From positions 62,001-126,000 of the forward strand of contig NZ_JPWI01000013.1 of assembly GCF_003326795.1 (NCBI RefSeq): 64,000 nt of DNA, given 5' to 3'. Positions 8,947-44,634 of the stretch are shown piece after piece. Every line of letters starts with the position of its first letter. Position 1 is the first letter of the stretch. Source of the DNA: Thalassospira profundimaris. Lineage in GTDB: Bacteria > Pseudomonadota > Alphaproteobacteria > Rhodospirillales > Thalassospiraceae. A program made the translations under genes and the position numbers. The notes under the pieces are model-generated. The model was not told the DNA's origin and made no database searches. It saw only the letters and a program-made list of their open reading frames with translations.

Positions 8947-8960
8947 AACATGAACGGTCC

Positions 8961-8989
8961 GAAGGGCGGCGATGATATCGTCGCCCTTC
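8961..8989 (+). terminator. Intra-operon hairpin between dctP and dctQ
   Basis: GAAGGGCGGCGAT / ATCGTCGCCCTTC forms a 13-pair stem (one G-T) with a 3-base loop, followed by TTTCTG. Such a partial terminator or RNA 3'-end protector between a binding protein and its permease genes allows more binding protein to be made. Confidence 0.65.
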
Positions 8990-9054
8990 TTTCTGTCTGT
9001 GGTTATTCTATTTCTGGTTCTGTTGCTGATTAATCCAATTCTGGCGGCGCATAG

Positions 9055-10890: not shown

Positions 10891-10923
10891 CCGCGGGCAA
10901 AACCGATATCAAAGAGGATACCT

Positions 10924-27229: not shown

Positions 27230-27251
27230 TGATCTGTCTTTCCCGAAAGGG

Positions 27252-28960: not shown

Positions 28961-29944
28961 TTACCGGCGCGTTGCGGGGGCTGTTTCACCTGTTTGAGGC
29001 GCACCCGGATCTTGATCCGGGATTTCCGAGATAAAATGCCTGCAATAGCCGTTTTCATAAGACCCCACACTTTTGTGAAGCCGTATCGAGGCGGCGTTTT
29101 TTTCACGGACCATCGACCAAAGGGGTTTTATCCCCATTTTTTGAAACTCATCCAGCGAATAGCCGGTGATCCATTTGGCAAGTCCGGTTCCCCACCATGG
29201 GCGCAAGACGGCAATCCCTGAAAACATCCCGAAACGGGTACATTCAGTACAGGCGGCAATTTGTCCGGTCGCATCGTCACGGGCATAAACCATCCAGGCA
29301 TCGTCAGTTTTGATCAGCTTCGAGATCAGATCGCTTGTGACTGTCGGATGAACATGTTCGGTACTGTAGGCTCGGTTGTAAAAATCGGCCAGTTCGCCAG
29401 CAACCTTGGGGTCGAAATGGTCGCGGTCAAAAGGATAAAGGGTCAAACCCGGCACGGGGATATAAGAATAGGGGGCGCCATCCCAGCAGAAACGAAAGCT
29501 CCGTTCGTGCAGATTCTCGGTAAATCCGCAACGCGCAAGAAACGGAATGATCTCGGCATTTTCGGGCGTGACCAGTGCATATTGATGTGTCAGGCCCCGT
29601 TGTTGAAAAACACGGTCCATCCCGTCTTTAAGGACATCCCCCACGCCCTGATTGCGATAGGGGGCGGCAACCATGTAGACAACGCTTCTGCATCCTTCAG
29701 AAAAATAGGGACGCCAGTGCGCCAGGCCCACACCGATGCACTGATCGTTGTGAGTGGCAAGGACCAGTGCCGCAAGACGGTCGAAGGGATTTTTCAGGAT
29801 GGATTGCCAGAAATCGTAATAATTCGATTCCGGCTTGGTCAAGCCCCATTCCTCAACTGCGCGATAGAGCATGTCTTGCATAGTGGATGGATCATATTCC
29901 GTAACAGATAGCGTTGCTGTCAGCGGGGAAGGACTGGATCGCAT
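28961..29944 (-). CDS. Tandem-domain GNAT acetyltransferase, RiPP-associated (copy 1)
   Basis: 327-residue protein with two GNAT-like halves. The N-terminal half (about 10-150) contains YDFWQSILKNPFDRL, VVYMVAAPYRNQGVGDVLKDG (acetyl-CoA loop) and PFLARCGFTEN. The C-terminal half (about 165-310) contains MVYARDDATGQIAACTEC, FSGIAVLRPWWGTGLAKWI and VREKNAASIRLHKSVG. It is a clear paralogue of the protein at 33172-34101, and each follows a peptide gene with the same leader. It may acetylate the azole-modified peptide; that role is inferred from the duplicated pairing. A terminator-like hairpin separates it from the peptide gene. Confidence 0.82.
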   Translation of the reverse strand: MRSSPSPLTATLSVTEYDPSTMQDMLYRAVEEWGLTKPESNYYDFWQSILKNPFDRLAALVLATHNDQCIGVGLAHWRPYFSEGCRSVVYMVAAPYRNQGVGDVLKDGMDRVFQQRGLTHQYALVTPENAEIIPFLARCGFTENLHERSFRFCWDGAPYSYIPVPGLTLYPFDRDHFDPKVAGELADFYNRAYSTEHVHPTVTSDLISKLIKTDDAWMVYARDDATGQIAACTECTRFGMFSGIAVLRPWWGTGLAKWITGYSLDEFQKMGIKPLWSMVREKNAASIRLHKSVGSYENGYCRHFISEIPDQDPGAPQTGETAPATRR

Positions 29945-29973
29945 CGCGGGTTTCTCGACAGAGCAAAAGACAA

Positions 29974-30006
29974 GAAAAATGCGATTGCCGATATCGGCAA
30001 TCGCGT
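29974..30006 (-). terminator. Attenuator hairpin between peptide gene and GNAT (copy 1)
   Basis: Positions 29981-30004 are a perfect 24-base palindrome with the arm GCGATTGCCGAT. On the minus strand it is followed by ATTTTTCTTG, so it can work as a partial terminator that keeps the peptide transcript in excess over the acetyltransferase. Confidence 0.7.
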
Positions 30007-30047
30007 TGAAATGCAGGGCTTGAGGTTCTTAGCTGCCTTTAAGTGCC

Positions 30048-30422
30048 TCAGACATCACCACTAATGCAGCCGAAGCATTGCTGCATCTGATGCATCGAGA
30101 CACTCAGTTCCTCGTCCGAAGAGATGATGCAAGGTGTGAAACCACCTTGACAGGGACGAGGGTAGCCGGACATGCCGAGCTCTTCGTCATTACGGGTCAG
30201 GCTTTTTGCAGGGGGGGACATTTCAGCGTCGCCCGTAATACCATAACCGCAAAATGGTCCCCCCGGACGCGGGCCGGGAAAAATGCCGAGATCCTCATCC
30301 GAACGGTCGAAGGAAAAACTGTTCTGTGGCTGCGAGGTCGAAAGCGGACGACCCTGGTCACTGGCAAGACGGTAAAATGCTGGCGACGGAACGGATCCGG
30401 CGGTCAGGTTTTCGTTTGTCAT
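30048..30422 (-). CDS. Candidate azole-RiPP (TOMM) precursor peptide, three-unit
   Basis: 124-residue acidic peptide beginning MTNENLTAGSVPSPAFYRL, which shares 14 of the first 19 residues with the repeat peptide at 34276-35016. After the leader, three spacer-core units can be read. Each opens with an acidic motif (SDEDLG, NDEELG, SDEELS) and continues into a Gly/Pro/Cys-rich stretch: FPGPRPGGPFCGYG, SGYPRPCQGGFTPC and HQMQQCFGCISG. Cys, Ser and Thr in these could become azol(in)es. ATG 30422 is behind CAGGAGTATCAGGGAT, nearly the same 5' context as the other peptide gene. A longer reading to 30482 would add 20 unrelated residues. It is followed by a GNAT gene. Confidence 0.8.
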   Translation of the reverse strand: MTNENLTAGSVPSPAFYRLASDQGRPLSTSQPQNSFSFDRSDEDLGIFPGPRPGGPFCGYGITGDAEMSPPAKSLTRNDEELGMSGYPRPCQGGFTPCIISSDEELSVSMHQMQQCFGCISGDV

Positions 30423-30763
30423 ATCCCTGATACTCCTGATGGCGAGGTTGATGATCTGTGGAGGCGCAAGTCCAACTATCAACCAACATCAATTACGGAA
30501 GTGACATTGGTTCAAAATTGACCATTCGTACCGGAAAGTCCTGATTTTTCTATTTTTTCCGGGTCTTGTTCTTGCAAAACTTTACAATAGTAATTCACGG
30601 TGCGCAACTGCAGGTTCATTCAATTGAAGCCCCATAAACGGCATCGTTAATGCTTGCCGGGTGGGGAAAGGGAGAACAGTCAAAAAATGATCGTGCCTGA
30701 GGGGTTTGTTGGCGCTAAACATCGCGCAGGGTCTGGACTTCTATCAGAACAGGATGTTGCAAA
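30423..30763. promoter_or_regulatory. Divergent region between peptide gene and anion permease
   Basis: 341 bases without a gene. It is AT-rich at 30510-30600, where the promoter of the peptide gene is expected. I find no sequence clearly shared with the other peptide promoter beyond the 20 bases around the start codon. Confidence 0.35.
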
Positions 30764-31990
30764 TTGGACTGGTTGATTGTTGCTGTCTTTGCGGGGGTCT
30801 ATTTCGGCATGGCGCTGGGGCGCTGGCCGGGGCTTGCGATCAATCGCACCGGAATTGCCGTGATCGGGGCGCTGATCCTGTTGCTGGCTGGCGCTGTCAA
30901 CGGGGGTCAGGCACTGGCATCAATTGATTTTGCGACCCTGTCGGTTTTGCTGACCCTGATGGTGCTGTCATCTCAATATGCAGCCAGCGGCTTTTTTGAC
31001 TGGATCGGCAATCGCATTACCCATCTTGATCTGACACCGCGCGGATTGCTTGCCGGGGTGATCATGATTTGCGGTGGCTTGTCGGCGGTCATGACCAATG
31101 ATGTGGTGGTCTGGGCGGTAACGCCGATCCTGATCTCAGGGGTGATCGCGCGCGGCCTTGATCCAAAACCCTTTGTCATAGCGGTGGCCTGTGCGGCCAA
31201 TGCCGGATCGGCCGCGACCCTGATCGGCAATCCGCAAAACCTGATGATTGCCGAATTTGGGCAGCTTGATTTCATCGAATTCCTGATGGTTTGCAGTGTT
31301 CCGGCCCTGATCGGGTTGCTGACTGTTTATGCCGTGCTGGTCTATGGCCCGATGACGCGTGGCGCGTTACAGCAGGTCGAAAGGATCGCAGCCGGTTCGG
31401 ACGCAACGGCCGTGTTGCCTGATCGTCCGATGCTGATCAAGGCGGTGGCGGCAACCATTGCCGTGATCCTGATCTTTATCCTTGTCGATGAACGTGCGCT
31501 TTGGTGCCTGCTGATTGTTGCCATGCTGTTGCTTAGCCGCAGGCTTGGCACGGATCAGGTCCTGGGGCGGGTCGACTGGCATTTGCTGGCACTGTTTTGC
31601 GGGTTGTTCATTGTCACCGGCGCAATGTCGGGCGATGACGTGATTGCAGGGTTCTTTCGTGACATCCTGATCACGCTTCATATTGATCAGCCCGCGGTTC
31701 TTGTCGGTCTGTCACTTGCCGGATCAAACACCATTGGCAATGTGCCGCTGGTGATGATGTTGCTATCCCTTGGCCCGGACTGGTCGCAAAGCATGTTGCA
31801 TGGCCTGGCTGTTTTCAGCACATTGTCGGGTAATTTTCTGATTGTCGGCTCGGTCGCCAATATCATTGCCGTTGAACAGGCCGCAAAGGCCGGAACGGTG
31901 ATTTCATTTACAGACTATGCGCGCCTTGGCGTGCCGATCACGTTGATCAGTCTTGTAATGGCGCTGGGCTGGATGACACTGATTTCGTAG
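30764..31990 (+). CDS. ArsB/SLC13-like anion permease
   Basis: Inner-membrane permease of 408 residues with about 11 hydrophobic segments, of the ArsB/NhaD/DASS ion-transporter superfamily. Recognizable parts are GGLSAVMTNDVVVWAVTPIL (first hairpin with Thr-Asn-Asp), AANAGSAATLIGNPQNLMIA, and the repeat-related LAGSNTIGNVPLVMM and SGNFLIVGSVANIIAVEQA in the C-terminal half. It may carry a carboxylate, sulfate-like anion or arsenite; it does not look like a peptide exporter. The start appears to be TTG 30764 behind AGGA; no in-frame ATG lies closer. It is the first of three same-strand genes set between the two peptide/GNAT pairs. Confidence 0.8.
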   Translation: MDWLIVAVFAGVYFGMALGRWPGLAINRTGIAVIGALILLLAGAVNGGQALASIDFATLSVLLTLMVLSSQYAASGFFDWIGNRITHLDLTPRGLLAGVIMICGGLSAVMTNDVVVWAVTPILISGVIARGLDPKPFVIAVACAANAGSAATLIGNPQNLMIAEFGQLDFIEFLMVCSVPALIGLLTVYAVLVYGPMTRGALQQVERIAAGSDATAVLPDRPMLIKAVAATIAVILIFILVDERALWCLLIVAMLLLSRRLGTDQVLGRVDWHLLALFCGLFIVTGAMSGDDVIAGFFRDILITLHIDQPAVLVGLSLAGSNTIGNVPLVMMLLSLGPDWSQSMLHGLAVFSTLSGNFLIVGSVANIIAVEQAAKAGTVISFTDYARLGVPITLISLVMALGWMTLIS

Positions 31991-31998
31991 GATCCAAG

Positions 31999-32412
31999 AT
32001 GACCAAGATTAAGATCACCGCAGGCCCGTTCACCTTTGACGGCGTGCTTGAAACCGAAAAAGCCCCGCAGACCTGCAAGGCGTTTCTTGACCGCATGCCG
32101 TTTGAAAGCAAGGCCGTCCATGTCCGCTGGAGCGGCGAGGGTGTCTGGATGCCGCTGGGCGATTATCAGTTCGGTGTTGGTTATGAAAACCACACCAGCT
32201 TCCCGGCACCGGGCCAGATCATCCTTTATCCCGGCGGGATCAGCGAAACCGAAATCCTGCTTGCCTATGGCGGCGTTCATTTCGCCTCCAAGGTCGGCCA
32301 GCTTGCCGGGAACCATTTCATCACGGTGACCAGCAATCTCGATGACCTTGAAAAACTTGGTAAAATGACGCTGTGGGAAGGTGCCCAGCCGATCCGGTTC
32401 GAGGTTGCATGA
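31999..32412 (+). CDS. DUF3830 cyclophilin-like protein
   Basis: 137-residue protein of the cyclophilin-like fold group (DUF3830/DUF369-like). Hallmarks are TFDGVLETEKAPQTCKAFLDRMPFES split across the N-terminal strand and helix, HVRWSGEGVWMPLGD, and QIILYPGGISETEILLAYGG near the centre. Catalytic prolyl isomerase residues are not evident; members are usually of unknown function and some sit in catabolic operons. It starts 8 bases after the permease stop, so it is probably co-transcribed with it. Confidence 0.82.
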   Translation: MTKIKITAGPFTFDGVLETEKAPQTCKAFLDRMPFESKAVHVRWSGEGVWMPLGDYQFGVGYENHTSFPAPGQIILYPGGISETEILLAYGGVHFASKVGQLAGNHFITVTSNLDDLEKLGKMTLWEGAQPIRFEVA

Positions 32413-32496
32413 TCGCATTGTGAACGGGCACACTCGTCTTGAGGCCCGGATTGCCCTAGAAGGCTTGCAATCTTTATTAAACGGGCGAGTGATGCC

Positions 32497-33090
32497 GTGT
32501 TCGAGACAATCAATCTGTGGATTCAGGACCACCAACAGCTGGTCTACACCCTGATCTTTACCTATTGCGTCAGCAAGGCCAGCATCCTGCCGGTGTTTGT
32601 CGGCATCTTTGTGGTATCCGAAAGCCTGTTGCCGGGGCCGTCTATTGTCGCGATGCTGTCCGGGGCCTTTGTCGGCGATATGATACGGTTCTGGCTGGGG
32701 CGCAAATATGGTGACGTGATTATGCGCAAGCTCCCGGATGGTCTGTCAAAGTGGTTGGGCAAAACCATGCGTTTGTTTGAGCATTATGGCGTCGCCTATA
32801 TCCTTTTGTGCCGCTATCCCAATACCATCCGCTCGATCAGTGTGTTTCCGGTCGGCATGAGTTCGATGTCATTCATGCGCTTCCTGCCGCTTTGCATCGC
32901 ATCAATCCTGCTTTGGGTAGGGATTTACTTTGCACTTGGTTATGTGCTGGGAGAGGGGATGTCGGAACTGCTTGAACGCAACCTCACACTGCTCAGTCCG
33001 ATCTTGCTGATTGTGTTCCTTGGGCTTGGCTGGTTCGGGCTTAAACGCATCGACAAGCTCGAACAGCAGGCCGAACGCGCCATCAAGTAA
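32497..33090 (+). CDS. DedA-family (SNARE-associated) membrane protein
   Basis: 197-residue integral membrane protein of the DedA/VTT family, linked to lipid scrambling, membrane energetics and resistance to cationic peptides. The re-entrant hairpin regions are visible as LLPGPSIVAMLSGAFVGDMIRFWLG and the Arg-containing LLCRYPNTIRSISVFPVGMSSM. The start is probably GTG 32497, as no in-frame ATG fits the N-terminus. It closes the three-gene unit between the two RiPP halves. A resistance role against the local peptide product is conceivable but unsupported. Confidence 0.82.
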   Translation: MFETINLWIQDHQQLVYTLIFTYCVSKASILPVFVGIFVVSESLLPGPSIVAMLSGAFVGDMIRFWLGRKYGDVIMRKLPDGLSKWLGKTMRLFEHYGVAYILLCRYPNTIRSISVFPVGMSSMSFMRFLPLCIASILLWVGIYFALGYVLGEGMSELLERNLTLLSPILLIVFLGLGWFGLKRIDKLEQQAERAIK

Positions 33091-33096
33091 TCAAAT

Positions 33097-33127
33097 AGAA
33101 ACGGCAGCCACACGGGCTGCCGTTTCT
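33097..33127. terminator. Terminator hairpin after the DedA gene
   Basis: AGAAACGGCAGCC / GGCTGCCGTTTCT, 13 pairs with a 5-base loop, lies between the DedA gene and the convergent GNAT gene and serves both. Confidence 0.85.
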
Positions 33128-33171
33128 GTATTCAGGCTTTGTGCTGTTGCAGGGAATGTGGGGTCCGCTGA

Positions 33172-34101
33172 TCAGGCCTGCTCGATCTGCGAAAAAAAGT
33201 ATCGGTAAATTCCGTCGCCATCGCGTTTCCAGCCCATCCGTTCGTGCAACCGGATTGATGCGGCATTGCGGGTGCGTACAAGGCTCCAGAGCTTGTCGAT
33301 CCCGTTTGCCCTGAAATGATCCATGCAATGGGCGGCGAGCCATTCGGCAACACCTTTGCCCCAATAGGGACGAATGACAGAAATCGCAGAGAACATTCCA
33401 TCTACGCCGCATTCGGCATAGGCAACGATTGCCCCGGTTGCCTGTTCGCGGGCAAAGGCAAACCACGTGCCGCCATGGGTGGCCAGTTTGCGAATGTCCT
33501 TGCCTTCAAGGTCAGCACAGGCCGGTTCATTGGCAAAGGTGCGGTTAAACAGGGTGGCCAGTTCGGCCTCGATCACCGGATCGGGATGATCGCGGTCGTA
33601 ATGATGGATGCTGAGCCCTGCGACGGCGGGCTTAGCATAATCACCGCCATCCCAGATCATGCGCATTGAATCATATTCTGCCTGATGGGCAAAACCGACT
33701 TTTTCATAAAGGGTACTATATTCGGCAAGTTCCGGGGGGGCAAAGGCGACTTGCGTGGTCCATCCCCGTTGGCGAAACAGTATATCGAGATGCTGCTTCA
33801 AGGCCCGCGCAACTGTTTCCCTAGGCTGGTTGCGATCAATGAAATAGGAAACCGAGCGCGAATTTTTATCAATGGTCGGCCGCCAGTTGATCTGTGCCAG
33901 TCCTATGATCGAAGTTCCATCAAAGGCCATAACCAATCCATCAAGGACCGTTCGATGGTCTTTCAGGATTGGTTGCCAGTAATCATAGAAGGGAGAGCTT
34001 TGCTCAAGCACTCCCCAACCGGTCAGCAACGCGCGAAACGGTTCTTCCATCGTGGCGGGATCATATTGTGCGACATGCAAGGCCAAATCGGTGTCAGACA
34101 T
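33172..34101 (-). CDS. Tandem-domain GNAT acetyltransferase, RiPP-associated (copy 2)
   Basis: 309-residue paralogue of the protein at 28961-29944. Shared landmarks are YDYWQPILKDHRTV, FRQRGWTTQVAFAPPELAEY, MIWDGGDYAKPAV, FSAISVIRPYWGKGVAEWL and VRTRNAASIRLHERMG. The C-terminal half keeps the acetyl-CoA pyrophosphate loop PYWGKGVA; the N-terminal half lacks a clear one (NQPRETVA), so it may be structural. It lies downstream of the multi-core peptide, separated by a long stem-loop. Its RBS is weak, consistent with lower expression than the peptide. Confidence 0.82.
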   Translation of the reverse strand: MSDTDLALHVAQYDPATMEEPFRALLTGWGVLEQSSPFYDYWQPILKDHRTVLDGLVMAFDGTSIIGLAQINWRPTIDKNSRSVSYFIDRNQPRETVARALKQHLDILFRQRGWTTQVAFAPPELAEYSTLYEKVGFAHQAEYDSMRMIWDGGDYAKPAVAGLSIHHYDRDHPDPVIEAELATLFNRTFANEPACADLEGKDIRKLATHGGTWFAFAREQATGAIVAYAECGVDGMFSAISVIRPYWGKGVAEWLAAHCMDHFRANGIDKLWSLVRTRNAASIRLHERMGWKRDGDGIYRYFFSQIEQA

Positions 34102-34158
34102 GATATCTCGGCACGCTTTCGATCAGGGCCTGTTTGCAAACAACGGCACGCCAGAGTC

Positions 34159-34202
34159 TCCGTTCAGGCCAAATGTTGATTATGTGGACTGGCCTGAACG
34201 GA
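34159..34202 (-). terminator. Stem-loop between multi-core peptide gene and GNAT (copy 2)
   Basis: TCCGTTCAGGCCA / TGGCCTGAACGGA, a perfect 13-pair stem with an 18-base loop. It occupies the same relative place as the attenuator at 29974-30006. There is no T-run, so termination is uncertain. Confidence 0.55.
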
Positions 34203-34275
34203 ATCCTCTTACGTCGCTTCCCCGTCTTCAGGGATGTTCGCACGACGGCAGGTCCGGGCATCTATGTAAGGGAAA

Positions 34276-35016
34276 TTACCATACACCGCATGCCGAGTAG
34301 CAGGGTTTCGGGCCGCCGGGAATCGGTGCACTAAGCGTCAGGTCATTGTCAGAGAATTCAGACTTGTCGGCGACCGGTGCACGACACCCCAGACCGCATG
34401 AGCAGCTTTGGGTGTGAAAGCCGGGAGGCGGTGCGCTCAGATCAAGGTCGTCAAATTGAACAGACAGTTCATCTTTACCGCGCCTGACGCAAAAACTTGG
34501 TGGCTGCGGAAGGGCGGCGTTGAGATTGGCATCGCTGACATCATCACTTTCTGGCCGCAGGGTGGTAATACACTGGCACGGAGCGGGTGGGTGACTTAAA
34601 GCCAGATTGCTGTCGCTGAGCTCAGCATTTTCTGGCAGCAAGGTGCAAATACACTGGCACGGAGCGGGTGGGTGACTTAAAGCCAGATTGCTGTCGCTGA
34701 GCTCAGCATTTTCTGGCAGCAAGGTGCAAATACACTGGCACGGAGCGGGTGGGTGACTTAAAGCCAGATTGCTGTCGCTGAGCTCAGCATTTTCTGGCAG
34801 CAAGGTGCAAATACACTGGCACGGAGCGGGCGGGTGATTTAAAGCCAGATTGCTGTCGGTGACATCATCACTTTCTGGCCGCAGGATGGTAATACTCTGC
34901 CCCGGAGCGGGCGGACGACTGAAAGCCAGATTGTTGTCGCTGATGTGATCATCGTCAAACAGACGAAGGAAAGCTGGTGTCGGCAATGACCCTGCAGCGA
35001 GATTTTCCTGTGTCAT
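34276..35016 (-). CDS. Multi-core azole-RiPP (TOMM) precursor with tandem repeats
   Basis: 246-residue peptide. The leader MTQENLAAGSLPTPAFLRL is nearly the same as in the peptide at 30048. Then come five full 27-residue units, each starting with an SD-x-N-L motif and carrying PPAPCQCICTLLPENA or a variant. Unit 1 is Cys-free (PPAPGQSITIL), units 2-4 have three Cys, and unit 5 ends CQCITT. The C-terminal part has three more divergent units (PSFCVRR, HTQSCSCGLGCR, KPCYSACGVW). There are 17 Cys in all. Alternating Cys-x-Cys-x-Cys-Thr suits azole formation by the divergent YcaO/SagB genes. The RBS AGGAG is strong. No homologue is known to me. Confidence 0.85.
   Translation of the reverse strand: MTQENLAAGSLPTPAFLRLFDDDHISDNNLAFSRPPAPGQSITILRPESDDVTDSNLALNHPPAPCQCICTLLPENAELSDSNLALSHPPAPCQCICTLLPENAELSDSNLALSHPPAPCQCICTLLPENAELSDSNLALSHPPAPCQCITTLRPESDDVSDANLNAALPQPPSFCVRRGKDELSVQFDDLDLSAPPPGFHTQSCSCGLGCRAPVADKSEFSDNDLTLSAPIPGGPKPCYSACGVW
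34520..34924. repeat. Tandem 81-bp repeat array encoding RiPP cores
   Basis: Five head-to-tail 81-base units begin at 34520, 34601, 34682, 34763 and 34844. The units at 34601 and 34682 are identical and the one at 34763 differs at two bases; the outer two are diverged. The repeats are in frame (27 codons) inside the precursor gene. Near identity at silent positions points to recent duplication or gene conversion. Confidence 0.95.
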
Positions 35017-35260
35017 ATCCAGAAACTCCTGAAACCGGTTGCCCGACGAACTGCTTGGGCACCCTTATTTATTCTTGGTGTCACAAACGTTTGGCGCGAA
35101 AAATACGCTAACATATGTCTAATATACTGTGCAACGCAGATTGCGCGATTTTTCCGATTGTGCATTGATATTTAGTTGTTTTTGCTCTTGCGTAAAAGAT
35201 GCAAGGCAGGGCAACCTGATCTGAGATCTGGACGGTTATAACAACACTTGCGGGGGAAGA
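35017..35260. promoter_or_regulatory. Divergent promoter region of precursor and YcaO genes
   Basis: 244 bases, AT-rich at 35060-35200. It must hold the promoters for the repeat peptide (minus) and the YcaO-SagB operon (plus). I see no recognizable operator. Confidence 0.45.
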
Positions 35261-37537
35261 ATGGCAATGGCGGAAGATCAGAAATACCTTGCGATTGCCC
35301 CACATTTCACCCTGCACACAATTGGCAATCACACCTACTTGCTATTGTCGGAAACCCAAAGTTTTCGCCTGAATGGCGAAAGATACGGGATTTTGTTCCC
35401 CTATCTTGATGGACGTCTGCGCGAGCAGGAGATTATCGCCCGGCTCGGTGATCGCATTCCGCCTGCGGATATATCCGAGATGATCGCGCATATGCGTAAG
35501 CGGGGCTATGTCGTTGCGATTGATCCATGGGCGGATCATGCCCGATCTGCATATTGGAGCGCCAATGTCTTGCAACCTGATGAATGTGAAAGCTTTGCCC
35601 AGTCGGTCAAGCTTGGCGTTGTCGGGCTGGGTCGCGATGGGGCTGCCGGGTCGGTGCAGGCGTCCGAACTTGCCGCGATGCTTATGGCGCAAGGTTTCAG
35701 CATTACCGATTTTAAAAATGCCAATCTGACCATTGTTCTGACCGAAGATTATCTGCAACCGGCACTTTCGGATTTCGCCCGCATGGCGGCCAAAAGCGAA
35801 ATGGCATGGGTGCCGTTCAAGCCAGGTGGATTAAATGCATGGTTTGGGCCCGTCATTGGGGCTGATAGCGGTGCGGGCAATTGTTATTTCTGTCTGGCAA
35901 GGCGACTGGCCGAACATCGTCAGGGCGATACAGTGGCCCCGGCATCACCAGAAGGTGCCCGTCCGGCACGGGCCTTTACCAAGGCCAGTCTGGCGGTTGC
36001 ATTTGGTCGGGCGGCGCTTGAAACGGTGCGTCTGAGTTTTGGCCTGTGCGATGATCTTCGCACGAAGTTGCAGGTCTGGTCGTTAAGCGATGGGGTGAAT
36101 GAGCAGCATGGCGTGCCGTTATTTGCCGATTGTCCCGAACATGCTCTGCAGTCAACACCGCAAACACCCGATCAGATGCATCGACCAATCACCCTGTCAC
36201 GGATCAAAAATCAGGATGGGGCGGATGGCGGTTGGCGGGCGCTGACCCCGGAACAGGCACTGGCCAGACTGGAACCGATTGTCAGCCCCCTGACCGGGAT
36301 TGTTGGCCATCTGCACAAGGCTGATCTGGCGGAGGGGCTGCATGTTTATTCCGCCTCGCAGGGACGCCGGATGTCGATTGATCCACGTCAGAACCGATCG
36401 CTTGGGCGTCCGGGCGGGGCCGCAGGCAAGGGGTTAAGTGACAGTCAGGCCAAGATCAGCTGTCTGGCCGAGGCTGTTGAACGCTATAGTGCGCAATGGT
36501 CGGGCTCTGAACCCCGCCATCAGGCAAGCTGGCGGGAAATTCGCGAACATGCCCCGCATCCAGCTTCGTTTCTGGACTATGCCGCGCAGCAATATCAGAA
36601 CCGCGAAAGCCTGAACCGGAATGCCACCACGATGGCCCGCATTCCCGAACCGTTTGACGAGACAGCGGTGATTGACTGGACCCCGGCCTGGTCGCTGCGG
36701 GATCACGCGCCGCGCTGGGTGCCGACCCGGTTCTGTTATTACGAATATCGGGGTAATGCGCCCGGTGATCATGATTTCTGTATGGCGGATTCAAATGGCT
36801 GTGCGACAGGTGGCAGCATCGAAGAAGCAATCCTGCAGGGGGTGCTTGAACTGGTTGAACGCGATGCGATTTCGATCTGGTGGTATAACCGCCTTGTGCC
36901 AAGGCGCGTATCGCTTGACGGGCTTGATGATGCGTTTATTGCCAATATGCAGGCCCATTACCAGTCACTGGGACGAACGTTCTGGGTGATTGATCTGACC
37001 ACCGATCTTGGGATTCCGGTGATGATTGCTGCATCAGCCAAACAGGATGGCAGCCGGATATTGCTTGGTTTCGGATCACATCTTGACGGGCGGATTGCCG
37101 CTTTGCGTGCCCTGACCGAACTCAACCAGATTTTGATGCATGATGATATCGAGCCCTCAACGATCCAGACCAAGGGCGGGATCGAAGATGCTATGATGGA
37201 ATGGCTGGCAACCGCCAATCTCGCCGACCATCCCTATATTGCCGGGACCGGTGCGGAAAAGTCGGTCGATGATCTTCCAAGCGCCGGGTTTGATACGATT
37301 GATCAGGCAGTCCGGTTTTGTGTCGATCGGATGGCAGAAGAAGGGCTCGATACCATTGTTGTCGATTACAGCCGCCCGGACCTGCCGCTTTCCTGTGTTC
37401 GTGTTGTGGTGCCGGGTCTGCGTCATTTCTGGAACCGCCGTGCGCCGGGACGGCTGTTTGATGCGCCGGTCAAGATGGGCGCACTTGATCACCCCCATAG
37501 CTATGACGATCTGCACCCCTTGGCCTTTTTCCTGTGA
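35261..37537 (+). CDS. Fused E1-like/YcaO azoline-forming cyclodehydratase
   Basis: 758-residue fusion expected to form azolines on Cys/Ser/Thr of the local peptides with ATP. The N-terminal part (about 1-300) resembles TOMM E1-like/RRE scaffolds: KLGVVGLGRDGAAGSV near 115, GNCYFCLARR (CxxC, about 207), and a second half-motif CPEH near 290 where a CxxC is usual. The YcaO domain (about 370-758) has the ATP/Mg motifs GKGLSDSQAKISCLAEAVER and NGCATGGSIEEAILQGVLEL followed by VERDAISIWW. The C-terminus is HPLAFFL instead of the usual PxPxP. The start is ATG 35261 or 35267. SagB follows after 6 bases. Confidence 0.92.
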   Translation: MAMAEDQKYLAIAPHFTLHTIGNHTYLLLSETQSFRLNGERYGILFPYLDGRLREQEIIARLGDRIPPADISEMIAHMRKRGYVVAIDPWADHARSAYWSANVLQPDECESFAQSVKLGVVGLGRDGAAGSVQASELAAMLMAQGFSITDFKNANLTIVLTEDYLQPALSDFARMAAKSEMAWVPFKPGGLNAWFGPVIGADSGAGNCYFCLARRLAEHRQGDTVAPASPEGARPARAFTKASLAVAFGRAALETVRLSFGLCDDLRTKLQVWSLSDGVNEQHGVPLFADCPEHALQSTPQTPDQMHRPITLSRIKNQDGADGGWRALTPEQALARLEPIVSPLTGIVGHLHKADLAEGLHVYSASQGRRMSIDPRQNRSLGRPGGAAGKGLSDSQAKISCLAEAVERYSAQWSGSEPRHQASWREIREHAPHPASFLDYAAQQYQNRESLNRNATTMARIPEPFDETAVIDWTPAWSLRDHAPRWVPTRFCYYEYRGNAPGDHDFCMADSNGCATGGSIEEAILQGVLELVERDAISIWWYNRLVPRRVSLDGLDDAFIANMQAHYQSLGRTFWVIDLTTDLGIPVMIAASAKQDGSRILLGFGSHLDGRIAALRALTELNQILMHDDIEPSTIQTKGGIEDAMMEWLATANLADHPYIAGTGAEKSVDDLPSAGFDTIDQAVRFCVDRMAEEGLDTIVVDYSRPDLPLSCVRVVVPGLRHFWNRRAPGRLFDAPVKMGALDHPHSYDDLHPLAFFL

Positions 37538-37543
37538 GGCGTC

Positions 37544-39046
37544 ATGACTGCGAATGCATCGACTGGATCTGCTTTTTTTGCATCTTCTGACCCCTATCTT
37601 GGTATCGGGCTTGGTCCCCATGTTCGGGCGGTCTCATTCGATGAGACCGGTGGGCGCATGGTGTTGAAAACGGCCTTTGGCGATGAACCGACGCTTTATG
37701 ATCATCCAACCGGTTGGTCAGACCCGCGGTTTGTCGATCTGGTCGCATCCTGGGGTGTCGACAATGGGGTGCCGGTTGCAACGCTCTGTGAACAGATTGG
37801 CGATATCTGCCCCGAACTGAACGAGGAACAGGTTTGGAAAAAGGCCGATCAATTGCTACATGAGCTGGCCAAGGTTCAGGCGTTGCAGTGGTGGTATTGG
37901 CCAGATAAATCTTCTGGTGCGCCGCTGTGTCATATTGAGTCAGGGTCGCGGCTTTATTATACGCCGCTTGAAATCGGGGCGGCGCCCGAGGATGCAGAGA
38001 TTTCGCGCTTTGCCTTTGTTCAGCGCGAAGGCGGCAAGACAGTTCTTGAAAACTGTGAGATCGGTGTGCGGTTGGTGCTTGGTCCGCAGGGTGACGGGTT
38101 GCTGGCCCACATCTTTGGCGATCCGAAGCATGGCAATAGCATGAATTCAGGCGATGAAGGCAAACTGGTCTATCCCGGTTTCTGGCATTTTCTGTGGCGG
38201 TTCGGCTTTTTGCAAAGCCCGTCTCATGACAGTTTTGATCGTCAAAGCTGGGAATTTCATGAACGGCTGTTCCATTCCCGATCCCGCAGTTTTCTGGATC
38301 AGAGAATGATTGGCGGGACCTATCGGTTCAAGGACAAGGTGCCATCCCTGCCCGCGATCAAGGCGCCAATGTCTGCCCACAAGATCGCATTGCCGCGCCC
38401 GGATGACAATTCAGCCGATGCCAAGCATAAGCCGCTGTCGCTTTATGATGTGATGGATGCGCGCAAATCCATCCGCGAACCGGGCGCTCGCCCGCTGAGG
38501 CTTGATGATCTGGGCGGCTTTTTATGGCGGTCTGTTTCTACCCGCAAACATATCAAGCATGGCACGTCGCAGGATTTGCTGGAACGTCCGGTTCCTGCCG
38601 GTGGCGCGATCCACGAGATCGAAATCTATCTGGTCATCAATCGCTGCGATGGTTTGAAACCGGGCATCTATCATTATCAGGGGGCGGAACATGCACTTTA
38701 TGCCTTGCCTGCTCGTGAACAGGTGCGCAAAGCCATCCTTGGTGTGGCAAGCGGTGCTACGGGTCTTGGTTCCAAGTTACCCGATAGTCTGATCGTGATG
38801 GCAAGCCGGATGCCGCGCCTTGGCTGGAAATACCAGAATCTCTGTTATCGGCTTTCGCTGCTTAATGCAGGGGTGATGATGGAAGCCTTCTATCTGGTGG
38901 CAACTGAAATGGGGTTGTCGCCCTGTGCCACCGGAAGCGGCGATAGCGCGCTGTTTGCGCTTGCCACAGGTCTTGGCATCGAGCATGAAACCGCGATTGG
39001 CGAATTCATCCTGAATGGCCCGCCGATCAAGAAATCCTATCACTGA
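37544..39046 (+). CDS. SagB-type azoline dehydrogenase
   Basis: 500-residue protein. The C-terminal half (about 290-500) is a nitroreductase-like FMN domain: SLYDVMDARKSIREPGARPL, LDDLGGFLWRS, GGAIHEIEIYLVINRCDGL, YRLSLLNAGVMMEAFYLVAT and GLSPCATGSGDSALF. The N-terminal half matches the extension common in SagB-type proteins. It should oxidize azolines to azoles using FMN. The gene follows the cyclodehydratase by 6 bases in one operon, completing the minimal TOMM enzyme set. No dedicated protease or ABC exporter is found next to it. Confidence 0.9.
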   Translation: MTANASTGSAFFASSDPYLGIGLGPHVRAVSFDETGGRMVLKTAFGDEPTLYDHPTGWSDPRFVDLVASWGVDNGVPVATLCEQIGDICPELNEEQVWKKADQLLHELAKVQALQWWYWPDKSSGAPLCHIESGSRLYYTPLEIGAAPEDAEISRFAFVQREGGKTVLENCEIGVRLVLGPQGDGLLAHIFGDPKHGNSMNSGDEGKLVYPGFWHFLWRFGFLQSPSHDSFDRQSWEFHERLFHSRSRSFLDQRMIGGTYRFKDKVPSLPAIKAPMSAHKIALPRPDDNSADAKHKPLSLYDVMDARKSIREPGARPLRLDDLGGFLWRSVSTRKHIKHGTSQDLLERPVPAGGAIHEIEIYLVINRCDGLKPGIYHYQGAEHALYALPAREQVRKAILGVASGATGLGSKLPDSLIVMASRMPRLGWKYQNLCYRLSLLNAGVMMEAFYLVATEMGLSPCATGSGDSALFALATGLGIEHETAIGEFILNGPPIKKSYH

Positions 39047-39102
39047 TCCGGGCTGAAGTGATCCGGGGACTGCCGACTTTGGATTTGGTGGGCCAAACAA
39101 AA

Positions 39103-39126
39103 AACCGCCGGGATTGTCCGGCGGCT
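39103..39126. terminator. Terminator between SagB and U32 genes
   Basis: CCGCCGG / CCGGCGG stem with a six-base loop. Read on the minus strand it is followed by TTTTTTG, a good terminator for the U32 gene; it also ends the SagB transcript. Confidence 0.75.
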
Positions 39127-39153
39127 TTGTGTGATCAGCAATCTGAAGAATGC

Positions 39154-40800
39154 TTATTCCGCAGCAATCGTCTTGCCGTCTTTTTCAAGCATCTCGCCCT
39201 GTTTGCGTTTGGCAAGGATTTCGCGTGCCTTGGCATAGGTGTCATCGTGCCAGAAGATCAGGCAACCGTTACAGCCACGGCCACAACAGCCTTTGGTGCC
39301 CACGCGCGGTGTACGGAAAGAACGTTCTTTCTGACGATCATCAAGGGCGGTCTGAAGCGCATCGCGTTTGGCGTCATAGCGGTCTTCATTGCCTTTGCCC
39401 ATCTCGATCTTGTGGCCTTCCTGATCAAGTTTCAGGCGCTGCCATTCGTCTTCCGAAAGGGCTTTTTCCTTGCGTACGATGGTCATCGGAAGCACTTCGC
39501 GACGCAGGAATTCCGGGTCTTCCTGTTCAAACAGCGAGAACGGAAGGCGGATGCGCGGATGGGTGTTGGCGTGGACAGCTTCGCCGACCTTGCCGGTTTT
39601 GGCGTCGATGAATTCATACATGCGGATGAAAATGGTCTGACGCGAGCGCGGCGGGACGATTTCAATCACGTCACCGGGCAGCATGCGGTTTTTGACCGAC
39701 ATGATAAAGGCGTCGTCTTCGACTTCCTCGATCATTCCGGCAAATTCCCAATCCGACACATTGGTGTTGCTGTCATAGCCATGCGCATAGTTGGTCAGAC
39801 GGCCATCATGGAAGGCAAGGGTGTAACCCCGGTTCGGAATGGTCGACAGTTCCTTCATATATTCGTCAGCTGACCAGTTTTCCGGATCCTTGTACCAGTC
39901 ATCAATCGCCATGCGATAGGCACGGGCAACGAGGCCGGCGTAATAGGGACTTTTGCCGCGGCCTTCGACCTTGAGGCTGTCGACGCCGATTTTCAGGTAA
40001 TCTTCAAGCTTCGGCATGATGCAAAGATCACGCGAGTTCAGGATATAGGAGCCGCGCTCGTCTTCCTGAATTTCCATCAGCTCGCCCGGACGCATGTCTT
40101 CTTCAAGGAAGAAGTCAAACATCTCAAGGTTTTCTTCGGTCAGGTTCAGTTCCTTGACCGTGCCGTCCTTGAGCTTCATATGGACTTTGTATTTCCAGCG
40201 GCACGAGTTCGCACAGGCCCCCTGATTGGCGCCACGTTCGGCCATGAAGTTCGACAAAAGGCAACGACCTGAATAGGTCATGCACATCGAACCATGCACA
40301 AAGGCCTCGATCTTGATGTCCTGGCATTTTTCGCGGATTTCGGTCAGCTCGGCATAGGAAACCTCGCGGCCGAGCACCACAAGCTTTGCCCCGATGCTTT
40401 GCCAGAATTTCACCGACTGCCAGGAACAGACATTGGCCTGTGTCGACACATGCAAATCAAGTTCCGGCGCATGTTCACGCACAAACATGAAAACACCGGG
40501 ATCAGCAACGATCAGACCATCCGGACGGACCTTGCGCACGGTATCGACATATTCCGGAAGCTTGTCGATATCCTTGTTATGCGAAAACAGGTTCAGCGTC
40601 AGATAAACGCGCACACCGTGGCTATGGGCAAAGTCGATGCCTTCGACCACGTCTTCAAGCGACAACTGGCTTTTGACACGCAAGGACAGGTCGGGCGTGC
40701 CCATGTAAACGGCGTCTGCACCATAAAGCACAGCCACTTTCAGTTTTTCGAGCGAACCTGCCGGCATCAGCAATTCGGAACGGCGCGATTGATTACTCAT
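39154..40800 (-). CDS. Peptidase U32 family protein (YegQ/TrhP-like)
   Basis: 548-residue U32-family protein. Family features are ELLMPAGSLEKLKVAVLYGADAVY, the signature-like EAFVHGSMCMTYSGRCLLSN, the cluster-binding Cys of CANSCRWKYK, and SLKVEGRGKSPYYAG. The C-terminal tail carries KGCCGRGCNGCLIFWHDD, an extra Cys-rich motif. Members such as TrhP and RlhA act in RNA hydroxylation rather than proteolysis, so the historic peptidase name may mislead. ATG 40800 was chosen because MSNQSRRSELLMPAG matches the family start. The RBS is weak. Confidence 0.9.
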   Translation of the reverse strand: MSNQSRRSELLMPAGSLEKLKVAVLYGADAVYMGTPDLSLRVKSQLSLEDVVEGIDFAHSHGVRVYLTLNLFSHNKDIDKLPEYVDTVRKVRPDGLIVADPGVFMFVREHAPELDLHVSTQANVCSWQSVKFWQSIGAKLVVLGREVSYAELTEIREKCQDIKIEAFVHGSMCMTYSGRCLLSNFMAERGANQGACANSCRWKYKVHMKLKDGTVKELNLTEENLEMFDFFLEEDMRPGELMEIQEDERGSYILNSRDLCIMPKLEDYLKIGVDSLKVEGRGKSPYYAGLVARAYRMAIDDWYKDPENWSADEYMKELSTIPNRGYTLAFHDGRLTNYAHGYDSNTNVSDWEFAGMIEEVEDDAFIMSVKNRMLPGDVIEIVPPRSRQTIFIRMYEFIDAKTGKVGEAVHANTHPRIRLPFSLFEQEDPEFLRREVLPMTIVRKEKALSEDEWQRLKLDQEGHKIEMGKGNEDRYDAKRDALQTALDDRQKERSFRTPRVGTKGCCGRGCNGCLIFWHDDTYAKAREILAKRKQGEMLEKDGKTIAAE

Positions 40801-40929
40801 CACTTGGGTCTTTTCGTCGGTATGCGGGAAATCTCTCTGTCCCGTTTCATATGGGACTTGGCGCGCTTCATAACATGGCGCGACCAGATTTCCGACCAAA
40901 ATCGCATATTCAAGCCCGTTTGCATAGGT

Positions 40930-40971
40930 CGCAGCCCTGCGTACCCGCCATGCCCGGTGCGCAGGGCTGCG
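40930..40971. terminator. Large inverted repeat between thioesterase and U32 genes
   Basis: CGCAGCCCTGCG / CGCAGGGCTGCG, a perfect 12-pair stem with an 18-base spacer, lies downstream of the thioesterase gene. It is probably its terminator, though no T-run follows. Confidence 0.55.
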
Positions 40972-41020
40972 GATTATCGTATGCCGACTGGGGGGGGATT
41001 GCAGCCAGACCGACGCTCAA

Positions 41021-41446
41021 TCAGGCTTTGGAAACCGGATCCTGCGGATCGGGATCAATCGGGCGCGGACGGCCTTCATCGTCAAGGGCGACGAAGGTAA
41101 AGACGCCTTCGGTCACTTTATCAGACGTTTCGGCAAAGCGTGTCTGACGCCAGGCTTCGACATTGATGCGAAGCGATGTGCGCCCGGTATGGATGATTTC
41201 GGTAAAGAACGAAACTTCATCGCCGACATGCACCGGGCGCAGGAACGACATGGTATCGACAAAGACCGTGGCGGTTCTGCCCTTGGCCCGGCGTGCGGCT
41301 GCGGTGCCCGCGGCAAGGTCCATTTGCGACATCAGCCAGCCGCCAAAGATATCGCCGCTCGGATTGGTATCAGAAGGCATTGCAACGGCCCGGACCGAAG
41401 GTTGACGATCGGGAAGGATGTCCGTTGCGGTTTCTTTTGATGTCAT
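41021..41446 (-). CDS. Acyl-CoA thioesterase (YciA-type hotdog fold)
   Basis: Hotdog-fold thioesterase of 141 residues that hydrolyses acyl-CoA. The YciA signature AMPSDTNPSGDIFGGWLMSQMDLAAG (about residues 22-47) is complete, including the Asn and the catalytic Asp on the central helix. VFVDTMSFLRPVHVGDEVSF follows, and EGVFTFVALDDEGRPRPI lies near the end. It is a single gene of general metabolism with no clear functional link to either neighbour. Confidence 0.92.
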   Translation of the reverse strand: MTSKETATDILPDRQPSVRAVAMPSDTNPSGDIFGGWLMSQMDLAAGTAAARRAKGRTATVFVDTMSFLRPVHVGDEVSFFTEIIHTGRTSLRINVEAWRQTRFAETSDKVTEGVFTFVALDDEGRPRPIDPDPQDPVSKA

Positions 41447-41972
41447 TACAGGCGTTCCGAAATGGGTTATTCGCGCAACGTTACTTTAGTTTATCTAATT
41501 AAAGCCAGCGTAAAGTATCGCCAAATCAGGGCTCTACCAGATGTCACGTAGTCTGAAACACAATGCGGACCGGGCCGTTTCAGAGGTGAGTTTCAAGGGG
41601 AATTCAGCCATATTCAGAGCCTGACAAGAATTCGGATTTTTAATCTTGACCAAATGATCAGGATTGGACATGCTGTATCTGTCAGAGAGAGGCATCTGTA
41701 CGTGTAATCAACCGGGGATAACCCCGAAACTATAATCACACGACAGATTAGATACTGGGAAAAGTCCGGCATTGTCCGGACGGATACGCCAAGAATGTCA
41801 GAACAGGAAGACCCAGAGTTGGTCGGGCTCGCCCGTCCGCGCACGCCATAAATCTATCCTGATCCCGTATGCGGGATCGCAGTGCCCGCGCTGGTCAGAC
41901 TGTTTTTGCATTCTTGTTTTGTCTCTCGATGACATCAGGAGAGGACGCCTTTTTGGCAGGGAGACAAAACCA
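41447..41972. promoter_or_regulatory. Long intergenic region with RutR-box-like site at 41646-41661
   Basis: 526 bases between the thioesterase and preT. TTGACCAAATGATCAG at 41646-41661 matches the RutR consensus TTGACCANNTGGTCAA at 12 of 14 defined positions. It is framed by the same C and GG as the site upstream of rutR. TGAAAC (41551) and GTTTCA (41577) form a short inverted repeat. No gene is visible. Confidence 0.6.
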
Positions 41973-43331
41973 ATGACCACCTTGCAGGCCAAGCAAGTTT
42001 CCAAATCCGGTGCCATCCATGGTGGGGCCGGGCACAATGCAGCAGATGACGGTTTTTCCGATCTGCATCCGGCATATTCCACCCTTCAGGCAATGGCAGA
42101 AAGCAATCGTTGCCTCTATTGCTATGACGCCCCTTGTGTCACCGCATGCCCGACATCAATCGACATTCCGACCTTCATCCGCAAGATCAGCACCGGCAAC
42201 CCGGATGGGGCGGCAAAGACCATTTTGTCGGCCAATATCATGGGCGGCACCTGTGCCCGTGCCTGCCCGACCGAAGTTCTGTGCGAACAGGCCTGTGTGC
42301 GCAATGTCGCCGAAGATACCGCCGTTGAAATCGGAAGCCTGCAACGCTTTGCCGTTGATCATCTGATGGCGCGCGATCTGCCCCATCCGTTCAAGCGTGC
42401 GCCGGAAACCGGCAAGAATATTGCCGTGATCGGGGCCGGTCCGGCGGGGCTTTCATGTGCGCACCGTGCCGCTATGCTGGGTCACAATGTGACCGTATTC
42501 GAAGCCAAGGCAAAGCCGGGCGGTCTGAACGAATATGGTCTGGCCGCCTATAAGATGACCAATGATTTCGCCCAGCGCGAAGTTGAATTCCTGCTTGGCA
42601 TCGGCGGCATTCGCATCGAATACGGCAAGGCGCTTGGCAAGGATATCAGCCTTGCTGCCCTTAAGGATTCCTATGACGCGGTATTTGTCGGTGTCGGTCT
42701 TGGATCGACCAACAATCTTGGACTTACGGGCGAAGATTTCCCGGGCGTTGATGACGCGATCAGCTTTATCGAGAAGCTCCGTCAGACCGAACCGAAATCC
42801 GACATGCCGGTTGGCAATAATGTGATTGTCATTGGCGGCGGTAACACCGCAATCGATGCCGCAGTTCAGGCCAAACGCCTTGGTGCCGATGAAGTCACCC
42901 TTGTTTACCGTCGCGGTGCCGAAAACATGTCGGCGACCGAGTTCGAACAGGATCTTGCGAAAACCAACGGTGTTGTCGTTCGCTATTGGGCCAAGCCCGT
43001 TGCGATCAAGGCCAATGGCAAGCTTCAGGGCATGGAGTTCGAGAAAACCGAACTGGATGCCAGCGGCAAGCTGGTTGGAACCGGCGAGACCTTTGAAGTG
43101 CGTGCCGACCAGATTTTGAAAGCCATCGGACAGAAAATCAAAACCGATGACCTTGCCGGAATGGAGATCGCCGGTGGCAAAATCGTGGTCGATGAAAACT
43201 ATCAGACAACAGCCCCGGGCGTGTTCGCCGGTGGGGACTGCATCAAAAGTGGCGAAGACCTGACTGTTCAGTCGGTCGAGGACGGCAAACAGGCCGCCAT
43301 CGCCATCGATGCATTCCTGAAATCCGCTTGA
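41973..43331 (+). CDS. preT: NAD-dependent dihydropyrimidine dehydrogenase subunit PreT
   Basis: Flavin/iron-sulfur subunit of 452 residues of the enzyme that reduces uracil and thymine to dihydropyrimidines. The N-terminal Fe-S part has CLYCYDAPCVTACPTSIDIP and GGTCARACPTEVLCEQACVR. An FAD site GAGPAGLSCAHRAAMLGH is at about 152-170, an NAD(P) site VIGGGNTAIDAAVQAKRLG is at about 288-306, and a closing GVFAGGDCIKSGEDLT is present. ATG 41973 follows GGGAGA. It is the first gene of preT-preA-carbamoylase. Confidence 0.93.
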   Translation: MTTLQAKQVSKSGAIHGGAGHNAADDGFSDLHPAYSTLQAMAESNRCLYCYDAPCVTACPTSIDIPTFIRKISTGNPDGAAKTILSANIMGGTCARACPTEVLCEQACVRNVAEDTAVEIGSLQRFAVDHLMARDLPHPFKRAPETGKNIAVIGAGPAGLSCAHRAAMLGHNVTVFEAKAKPGGLNEYGLAAYKMTNDFAQREVEFLLGIGGIRIEYGKALGKDISLAALKDSYDAVFVGVGLGSTNNLGLTGEDFPGVDDAISFIEKLRQTEPKSDMPVGNNVIVIGGGNTAIDAAVQAKRLGADEVTLVYRRGAENMSATEFEQDLAKTNGVVVRYWAKPVAIKANGKLQGMEFEKTELDASGKLVGTGETFEVRADQILKAIGQKIKTDDLAGMEIAGGKIVVDENYQTTAPGVFAGGDCIKSGEDLTVQSVEDGKQAAIAIDAFLKSA

Positions 43332-43356
43332 ACCGTAGCCAAAGGGAGAGAGAAAA

Positions 43357-44634
43357 ATGGCTGATCTAAGCTGCAAAATCGCCGGAATTGATTCGCTTAA
43401 CCCGTTCTGGCTGGCCTCTGCACCGCCGACCGATAAGAAATACAACGTCGTTCGCGCCTTTGAAGCAGGATGGGGCGGGGTTGTCTGGAAGACGCTGGGC
43501 ATTGATCCGCCCGTGATCAACGTATCGTCGCGTTATGGTGCCCATCATGACCAGAACCGCCGTCTGCTTGGCATCAACAATATCGAACTGATTTCCGACC
43601 GGCCGCTTGCCGTCAACCTTCAGGAAATCCGCGAATGCCGTGCGGAATATCCCGATCATGTCATTATCGGATCGATGATGGCCCCGATCGAGGAGCGCGC
43701 CTGGAAGGACCTTGCCCAGCAGATCGCCGAAAGCGGTGTGCACGGGATCGAACTTAACCTTGGTTGCCCGCATGGCATGTGCGAACGCGGTATGGGCTCG
43801 GCCATTGGTCAGGTGCCTGAAATGGTTGAGCAGGTCACCCGCTGGGTCAAGGAAAGCGTTGATATTCCAGTCTTTACCAAACTGACGCCAAACATCACCA
43901 ATATCCTGTGGTCGGCCGAGGCTGCCTATAAGGGCGGGGCGGATGCGGTATCACTGATTAACACCGTTAACTCGATCATTTCGGTCGATATCGATCAGAT
44001 GGTGCCCGAACCGATGGTCGATGGCAAAGGTACGCATGGCGGTTATTGCGGATCGGCAGTCAAGCCGATTGCACTGAACATGGTTGCTGAAATCGCGCGC
44101 AGCCCGGAAACGAAGAACCTTCACATTTCCGGTATCGGTGGCATCACCACCTGGAAAGATGCGGTCGAATTCATGGCGCTGGGGTCTAACGCGGTTCAGG
44201 TTTGTACCGCTGCGATGATCTATGGCTTCCGTGTGGTCGATGATCTGATCGACGGCATGAGCCAGTGGATGGATGACAAGGGCTACACCAGTGTCGAACA
44301 GTTCACCCGTGCCGCCGTTCCGCAGGTTGCGGACTGGAACGAGCTGAACATGAACTTTGACACCAAGGCCGTGATCAACCCGGATAACTGCATCGAGTGC
44401 GGCCGTTGCCATATCGCATGTGAGGATACCTCACATCAGGCAATCACCATGACCAACAAGCCTGAAGGCGGCCGTCTGTTCGAGGTTGTCGACGAGGAAT
44501 GCGTTGGCTGTAACCTTTGCTATCACATCTGTCCGGTGCCCGATTGCATCACGATGGAACCGGTCAAAACCGACAAGCCGCCAATGACCTGGCCGGAACA
44601 TCCATTGAACCCGATGCGTATGGCTGCGGAATAA
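43357..44634 (+). CDS. preA: NAD-dependent dihydropyrimidine dehydrogenase subunit PreA
   Basis: Catalytic subunit of 425 residues. The dihydroorotate-dehydrogenase-like FMN barrel covers about 1-320 (NPFWLASAPPTDKKYNVVRAF split around the substrate loop; NLGCPHGMCERGMGSAIGQ holds the catalytic Cys; GIGGITTWKDAVEFMALG binds FMN phosphate). A C-terminal two-cluster ferredoxin domain follows (CIECGRCHIACEDTSHQ and CVGCNLCYHICPVPDCI). Together with PreT it performs the first reductive step of pyrimidine breakdown. The RBS AAGGGAGAG is strong. Confidence 0.95.
   Translation: MADLSCKIAGIDSLNPFWLASAPPTDKKYNVVRAFEAGWGGVVWKTLGIDPPVINVSSRYGAHHDQNRRLLGINNIELISDRPLAVNLQEIRECRAEYPDHVIIGSMMAPIEERAWKDLAQQIAESGVHGIELNLGCPHGMCERGMGSAIGQVPEMVEQVTRWVKESVDIPVFTKLTPNITNILWSAEAAYKGGADAVSLINTVNSIISVDIDQMVPEPMVDGKGTHGGYCGSAVKPIALNMVAEIARSPETKNLHISGIGGITTWKDAVEFMALGSNAVQVCTAAMIYGFRVVDDLIDGMSQWMDDKGYTSVEQFTRAAVPQVADWNELNMNFDTKAVINPDNCIECGRCHIACEDTSHQAITMTNKPEGGRLFEVVDEECVGCNLCYHICPVPDCITMEPVKTDKPPMTWPEHPLNPMRMAAE

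Follow-up and report, generated by a model that had tools for sequence, protein, structure and literature searches.

Families of TOMM peptides have been catalogued (Cox 2015, PMC4603692), and the terms Thalassospira, alphaproteobacteria, multiple core and acetyltransferase are absent from the main text of that paper. Among the described systems, cyanobactin precursors contain one to four cores, with RSI directing heterocyclisation (according to the accessible part of PMC4663559), and multi-core processing has been called rare in the sections available of PMC5934393. For goadsporin, GodH is reported to acetylate the N-terminus after removal of the leader (excerpt of PMC5303826).

Here, we analysed a window of 64,000 nucleotides from the marine bacterium Thalassospira profundimaris (contig NZ_JPWI01000013.1, positions 62,001 to 126,000). 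About 28961-39046 of this window is occupied by what is probably an azole-forming RiPP system, the precursors of which are chains of self-contained substrate units, i.e. the recognition motif has been multiplied together with the core. A preliminary description had already proposed a multi-core azole RiPP, and this is the reading best supported by our data, in particular by the cyanobactin-like enzymes, the co-occurrence of the units with one YcaO clade and the resemblance of the unit motif to that of related precursors. In the openly licensed literature, titles and abstracts among the matches listed contain no description of such a YcaO protein combined with motif repeats. If our reading is true, an entire series of peptides with rings might derive from a single gene.

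Genes of the locus

Precursor P1 (34276-35016, minus strand) is, as in the preliminary description, a protein of 246 residues encoded beside a YcaO fusion and a SagB gene; it has nine motif-anchored units and 17 Cys residues. In the span 30000-44000 Tandem Repeats Finder detects a single array, which lies inside P1 (34532-34943, minus strand; 5.1 copies of 81 nt, score 628). The exact PPAPCQCICTLLPENA core quoted in the preliminary description is found in three P1 units only; PPAP(C/G)Q(C/S)I opens five units. Similarly, at least eight core-like units had been claimed, which is correct for the units as such (nine by motif-based segmentation), but not for Cys-bearing cores, of which we count seven. 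Two P1 units are identical over 81 nt, suggesting that part of the expansion is recent, and since the P1 copy in T. profundimaris strain 35 (L003) comprises only 142 aa, the number of units differs between relatives whose YcaO proteins are 94% identical.

Comparison of the window with strain 35 yields dN/dS values of 0.34 for P1 and 0.28 for P2 (see below), 0.12 for YcaO, 0.16 for SagB, 0.16 and 0.19 for two acetyltransferases, and 0.04 for an adjoining U32 gene. Thus, the P1 frame behaves as a gene, and both precursors are under constraint, yet they are the least conserved of the genes compared. Neither protein matches any Pfam or NCBIfam model, and a PHROGs scan of P1 returns one weak match of 15 residues. 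A scan of 34900-35350 for promoters and terminators yields one promoter-like and three terminator-like sites, where 0.4 of each kind would be expected; we place no weight on this result.

P2 (30051-30422, minus strand) has 124 aa with SDEDL, NDEEL and SDEEL units and 5 Cys residues, and its N-terminus (MTNENLTAGSVPSPAFYRL) resembles that of P1 (MTQENLAAGSLPTPAFLRL). In the source genome, searches with P1 and with the unit profile retrieve only P1 and P2 at the limits used. Each of the two genes is directly followed on the same strand by its own GNAT gene, i.e. GNAT1 (33172-34101; Pfam PF00583) downstream of P1 and its paralogue GNAT2 (28961-29944; 39% identity, GNAT matches in both halves) downstream of P2, an arrangement that points to further modification or self-protection. 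The gene set of the preliminary description, i.e. P1, the YcaO fusion and SagB, is therefore real but incomplete, as P2 and both GNAT genes had been missed. GNAT homologues lie near a precursor in seven of the eight precursor genomes (window, L003, L015, L016, L018, L039 and L066), but not near the third precursor of G062 (L067). None is found in the 20-kb locus of G668 (L050), where YcaO (8678-10989) is split over two overlapping frames, reflecting either a genuine disruption of the gene or a mistake in the assembly; both features of this locus weaken the reading as azole RiPP cassettes. Lys residues are scarce (0-10 per precursor), which mildly disfavours acetylation of precursor side chains at Lys.

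Downstream of GNAT2 the window contains a gene of the ornithine/arginine decarboxylase type together with a small GNAT gene (26723-28406, minus strand); here the gene is the one at 27252-28406 on the minus strand, the plus-strand ORF at 27162-28460 being antisense. A decarboxylase-type/small GNAT pair likewise lies downstream of precursor and GNAT in L015, and a decarboxylase is present in L016. In Thalassospira this pair could be part of the azole system.

Upstream on the opposite strand relative to P1, the plus strand encodes a fused RRE/leader-binding/YcaO cyclodehydratase (35261-37537, 758 aa) that scores above the cut-offs of TIGR03882 and TIGR03604. It consists of an N-terminal winged-helix domain of the RRE type (35294-35512, residues 12-84; PF21084, aligned with the N-terminus of LynD), an E1-like leader-peptide-binding domain (35804-36304, residues 182-348; TIGR03882) and a SagD-type YcaO domain (36422-37423, residues 388-721; TIGR03604 and PF02624, E 6.9e-91). 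Among solved structures the best matches are LynD, MusD and TruD, covering residues 9-224 and 308-753 (E 2e-134 for LynD). The adjacent SagB-type (ThcOx-like) FMN dehydrogenase (37544-39046, plus strand, 500 aa; TIGR03605 over cut-off) is closest to CyaGox among solved structures (PDB, E 2e-39), and the Lys-Tyr pair located in this match is presumably catalytic. A SagB homologue is present in ten out of ten genomes searched. Small lipoprotein-like proteins lacking a Pfam match are encoded after SagB in L015 (6418-6933) and L016 (6616-7161).

The locus thus combines the hallmarks of azole RiPPs: a YcaO cyclodehydratase with a leader-binding domain, nearby precursors with Cys/Ser/Thr in the core (P1 and P2) and, as an optional component, an FMN-dependent azoline dehydrogenase. 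An alignment of ten YcaO proteins shows conserved EA-x-ERY, DSNG, (E/D)-A-(I/V)-LQG and WWYNR stretches, which we take to belong to the active site. Two features weaken the assignment. A PxPxP tail is typical of azole-forming YcaOs, but the window protein ends in HPLAFFL (the tails of its relatives L040 and L017 read NPIPFFL and NPIPCFL). Furthermore, a C-x-x-C pair, presumably part of a zinc site, has lost one of its Cys residues in all four Thalassospira proteins of the group, whereas the six others aligned retain it.

Repeat precursors and their YcaO clade

A search with the YcaO protein gave matches in 5/29 genomes of the genus, 11/297 of the order and 14/385 of the class, in 5/398 genomes of the phylum at a stricter limit, and in 2/4 and 1/5 genomes of two families, counts that overlap between ranks and were obtained with differing E-value limits. 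A close group with 43-94% identity comprises the proteins of four Thalassospira genomes and of G062, G530, G611 and G668. These eight alphaproteobacterial genomes harbour 12 repeat precursors ranging from 72 to 633 aa and from 3 to 27 units, i.e. several core-like segments per precursor, as expected for multi-core RiPPs. A precursor of 505 aa in Thalassospira G025, located beside YcaO, SagB and GNAT genes, contains 22 anchors and 38 Cys residues, and the largest precursor, from G611, has 633 aa with 27 motif anchors and 58 Cys residues. Beside the G611 YcaO gene (L038, 5191-7642) we find genes for a DUF2282-like small protein and for DUF692-like, DUF2063-like and DoxX-like proteins, a set that by our reading resembles a bufferin-type cluster.

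To follow the units themselves, we used a profile of 30 positions built from 43 units, some of which were taken from positive genomes. Among 29 Thalassospira genomes it matched all four that have a close YcaO and gave one weak match elsewhere (G012, a 59-aa frame, E 0.0086); T. marina (G010), which has a distant YcaO, gave none. Among 385 genomes of the class four matches were obtained at E 1e-4, with at most 21 candidates scored per genome, and all four genomes have the close YcaO; of the 14 YcaO-positive genomes of the class only the source genome, G530, G611 and G668 contain units. Among the genomes searched, the units are thus almost confined to those with this YcaO clade. As the profile includes units from positive genomes and the number of candidates per genome was limited, the weight of this co-occurrence lies on the near-absence of units elsewhere.

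In a FastTree analysis of 24 YcaO proteins (omitting L021, L023, L045, L049 and L069-L072) those of the eight repeat-bearing genomes form one clade with a support of 1.000, apart from NHLP-type YcaOs and from L130, the only cyanobactin protein in the tree. The YcaO of G675 (40% identity) is the sister of this clade, and neither inspection of its 20-kb locus nor the unit profile revealed a precursor. We also considered the YcaO proteins of L017, L019-L023, L041-L049 and L069-L072 as members of the same system, but set them aside, at 33-38% identity, as other systems: T. marina G010 and most YcaO-positive genomes of the class lack the units.

The distribution bears on the view that the repeat precursors are ordinary Cys-rich proteins with a metal or redox function (cf. 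CGPC and CGQC) and no substrates of YcaO. The connection between peptide and enzyme is drawn from sequence, and in G611 the precursor and the YcaO gene reside on different contigs, an observation that also weakens our own reading. Nonetheless, the G611 precursor adjoins SagB and GNAT genes, the units co-occur with a single YcaO clade, and their motif is similar to the leader motifs of related YcaO systems, so that we regard this view as hardly probable at all.

Anatomy of the repeat unit and related single-motif systems

Units start with an acidic (I/V)SDEEL-like motif. When the 12 precursors are segmented, 97 motif anchors result; 87 of the units contain Cys and ten do not. As the anchor pattern was chosen by us, conservation at its own positions is no evidence, but in 11/12 precursors the strict motif is more frequent than the maximum obtained in 500 shuffles. 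The first Cys is located 9-11 residues past the anchor Leu in 64 of the 87 Cys units and preceded by Pro in 49. The L016 precursor, which has no strict motif, and the 10/97 units devoid of Cys weaken the reading as azole RiPP cassettes. Different genera have 12 core 8-mers in common as compared to none in 200 within-unit shuffles, indicating that certain cores persist from genus to genus whereas others change. The conserved cores APMPCTFS, RPDQNWCR, PPPCGFPC and SPRPCAPC are concrete product candidates. Beyond the preliminary description, the repeated stretch includes the recognition motif along with the core, and relatives reach 27 units.

Motifs of the same kind occur singly in related systems. 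In T. marina (L017, G010:C2, 5997-15154) a distant YcaO is encoded between U32 and PreT/PreA genes, as in the window, on a record filed as plasmid; in our reading this set also includes a lanthionine-synthetase-like protein and a fusion of SagB with a P450-like segment. A precursor-like ORF of this locus contains one ADLSDEQLNQA followed by a Cys/Ser-rich end, and we read the precursors of L017 and L042 as NHLP-like. As the T. marina system occupies the same site, RiPP islands may have a hot spot in this U32-PreT/PreA region; a U32-family gene (39157-40806 in the window, adjoining SagB) flanks L003, L015, L016 and L017, too, and by dN/dS is more constrained than the precursors. In a plasmid cluster of Gloeothece verrucosa, the annotation of which lists PatA/PatG-family proteases as well as PatB/PatC-type proteins, a small ORF carries a single IDLSEEELTAEG ahead of a Cys-bearing end; we interpret this ORF as the precursor of that cyanobactin cluster. 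Since the repeated motif resembles these single motifs in T. marina and Gloeothece, we favour a reading in which every unit serves as a substrate by itself, and the simplest history is a joint duplication of recognition motif and core.

Based on these findings we propose that a unit is made up of an (I/V/L)-(S/T)-(D/N)-x-(E/D/N)-L motif, a short linker, a Pro-rich stretch and usually one to three Cys residues. At the N-terminus of P1 and P2, what would be the leader looks like such a unit lacking Cys. The winged-helix RRE of the YcaO fusion may dock on each unit's own motif, allowing the YcaO domain to cyclodehydrate Cys, and perhaps some Ser/Thr, usually starting 9-11 residues downstream, whereupon SagB would oxidise the azolines to azoles. 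An unlinked protease may then cut the modified chain, and the paired GNAT most likely either N-acetylates the released peptide, which may be active, or protects the producer.

Alternatively, ordinary leader logic might apply, i.e. only the first motif is bound and the enzyme proceeds along the chain, the repeated SDxxL sequences serving as spacers or protease sites between cores like RSII/RSIII of cyanobactins. There, a single RSI serves one to four cores, each flanked by RSII/RSIII (accessible part of PMC4663559), and P1 and P2 do have a distinct N-terminus in common. Against this, related systems carry a single leader motif to which the repeated one is similar, G062 has two precursors with just five residues ahead of the first motif, and in chains of 22-27 units cores would be hundreds of residues away from a lone leader. 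We therefore consider an ordinary leader unlikely. A further-reaching version of our own reading, in which the leader has dissolved into the repeat and autonomous docking-plus-core cassettes have been duplicated, shuffled and shared between genera, with the 633-aa gene giving rise to about 27 modified segments as a combinatorial library on one chain, is a doubtful extension; taken to its extreme, the product would be the completely modified chain itself, which would never be cut.

That last idea can also be put as an explanation of its own, with an intact many-azole polypeptide that has an intracellular role or serves as a polymer for structure or metal binding. Consistent with the statement of the preliminary description that no protease or ABC exporter is adjacent, we find neither an exporter nor a RiPP protease among the immediate window neighbours scanned. 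A U32-family protein adjoins, but it also flanks the loci named above and is more constrained. Many Cys residues occur in pairs. Moreover, a PatA/PatG protease (TIGR03895) scores above cut-off in none of ten genomes searched, which fits an uncut chain and weakens the reading as azole RiPP cassettes. The sole match to the PatA model in these genomes is partial (L119, G062:C133:21786-22346; 63.7 bits, cut-off 421). On the other hand, cores are conserved across genera while their neighbours vary, as would fit separate products, a general protease could cut the chain, and the exporter scan covered the other loci in part, AcrB-type pumps being found in two precursor loci (L039 and L050). An uncut product is thus very unlikely in our estimation.

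Returning to units that each serve as a substrate, independent docking would constitute a natural design for peptide libraries encoded by a single gene, in which an added cassette means an added product and no leader has to stay within reach. The system would then allow a direct test of whether RRE-dependent enzymes need a single leader for the entire chain or a separate motif for every core.

Comparison with known systems

Cyanobactins provide the closest solved enzymes over the full length (LynD/TruD/MusD and ThcOx/CyaGox), have Cys-bearing cores, may contain several cores per precursor (accessible part of PMC4663559), and an acidic LSEEEL-type motif is found in the precursor-like ORF beside the Gloeothece cyanobactin cluster. 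However, they use a single RSI for one to four cores with RSII/RSIII, whereas here the motif recurs before nearly every core in chains of 3 to 27 units. Together with the YcaO clade, which lies outside the cyanobactin grouping as represented by L130, and the lack of PatA/PatG over cut-off (0/10), this layout led us to reject membership in the cyanobactins. Azole systems with NHLP or Nif11 leaders have in common with the locus the YcaO-SagB pair and leaders ending in ADLSDEQLNQA- or NEELSELDLMTVAGG-type sequences before the core, but they have one long leader and one core, their YcaOs are 33-38% identical and fall outside the clade, and neither a nitrile-hydratase-like nor a Nif11 leader is recognized in P1 and P2 by Pfam or NCBIfam.

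Goadsporin is an azole RiPP finished by a GNAT, GodH, and serves as precedent for N-acetylation as the most likely role of the GNATs here, self-protection being the alternative; it differs in having a single leader and core, and the window GNATs, for all NCBIfam models that they match, stay well under the respective cut-off. In the multi-core microviridin precursor AMdnA several cores per chain are likewise processed by one enzyme, but by ATP-grasp ester chemistry and with one leader motif for three cores (sections available of PMC5934393). Regarding the mode of working, the plant burpitides ArbA2/ArbB2 come close, as their tandem cores each have their own recognition sequence (excerpt of PMC12186524); with a plant origin, a copper enzyme and unrelated chemistry, this likeness is one of working and not of family relation.
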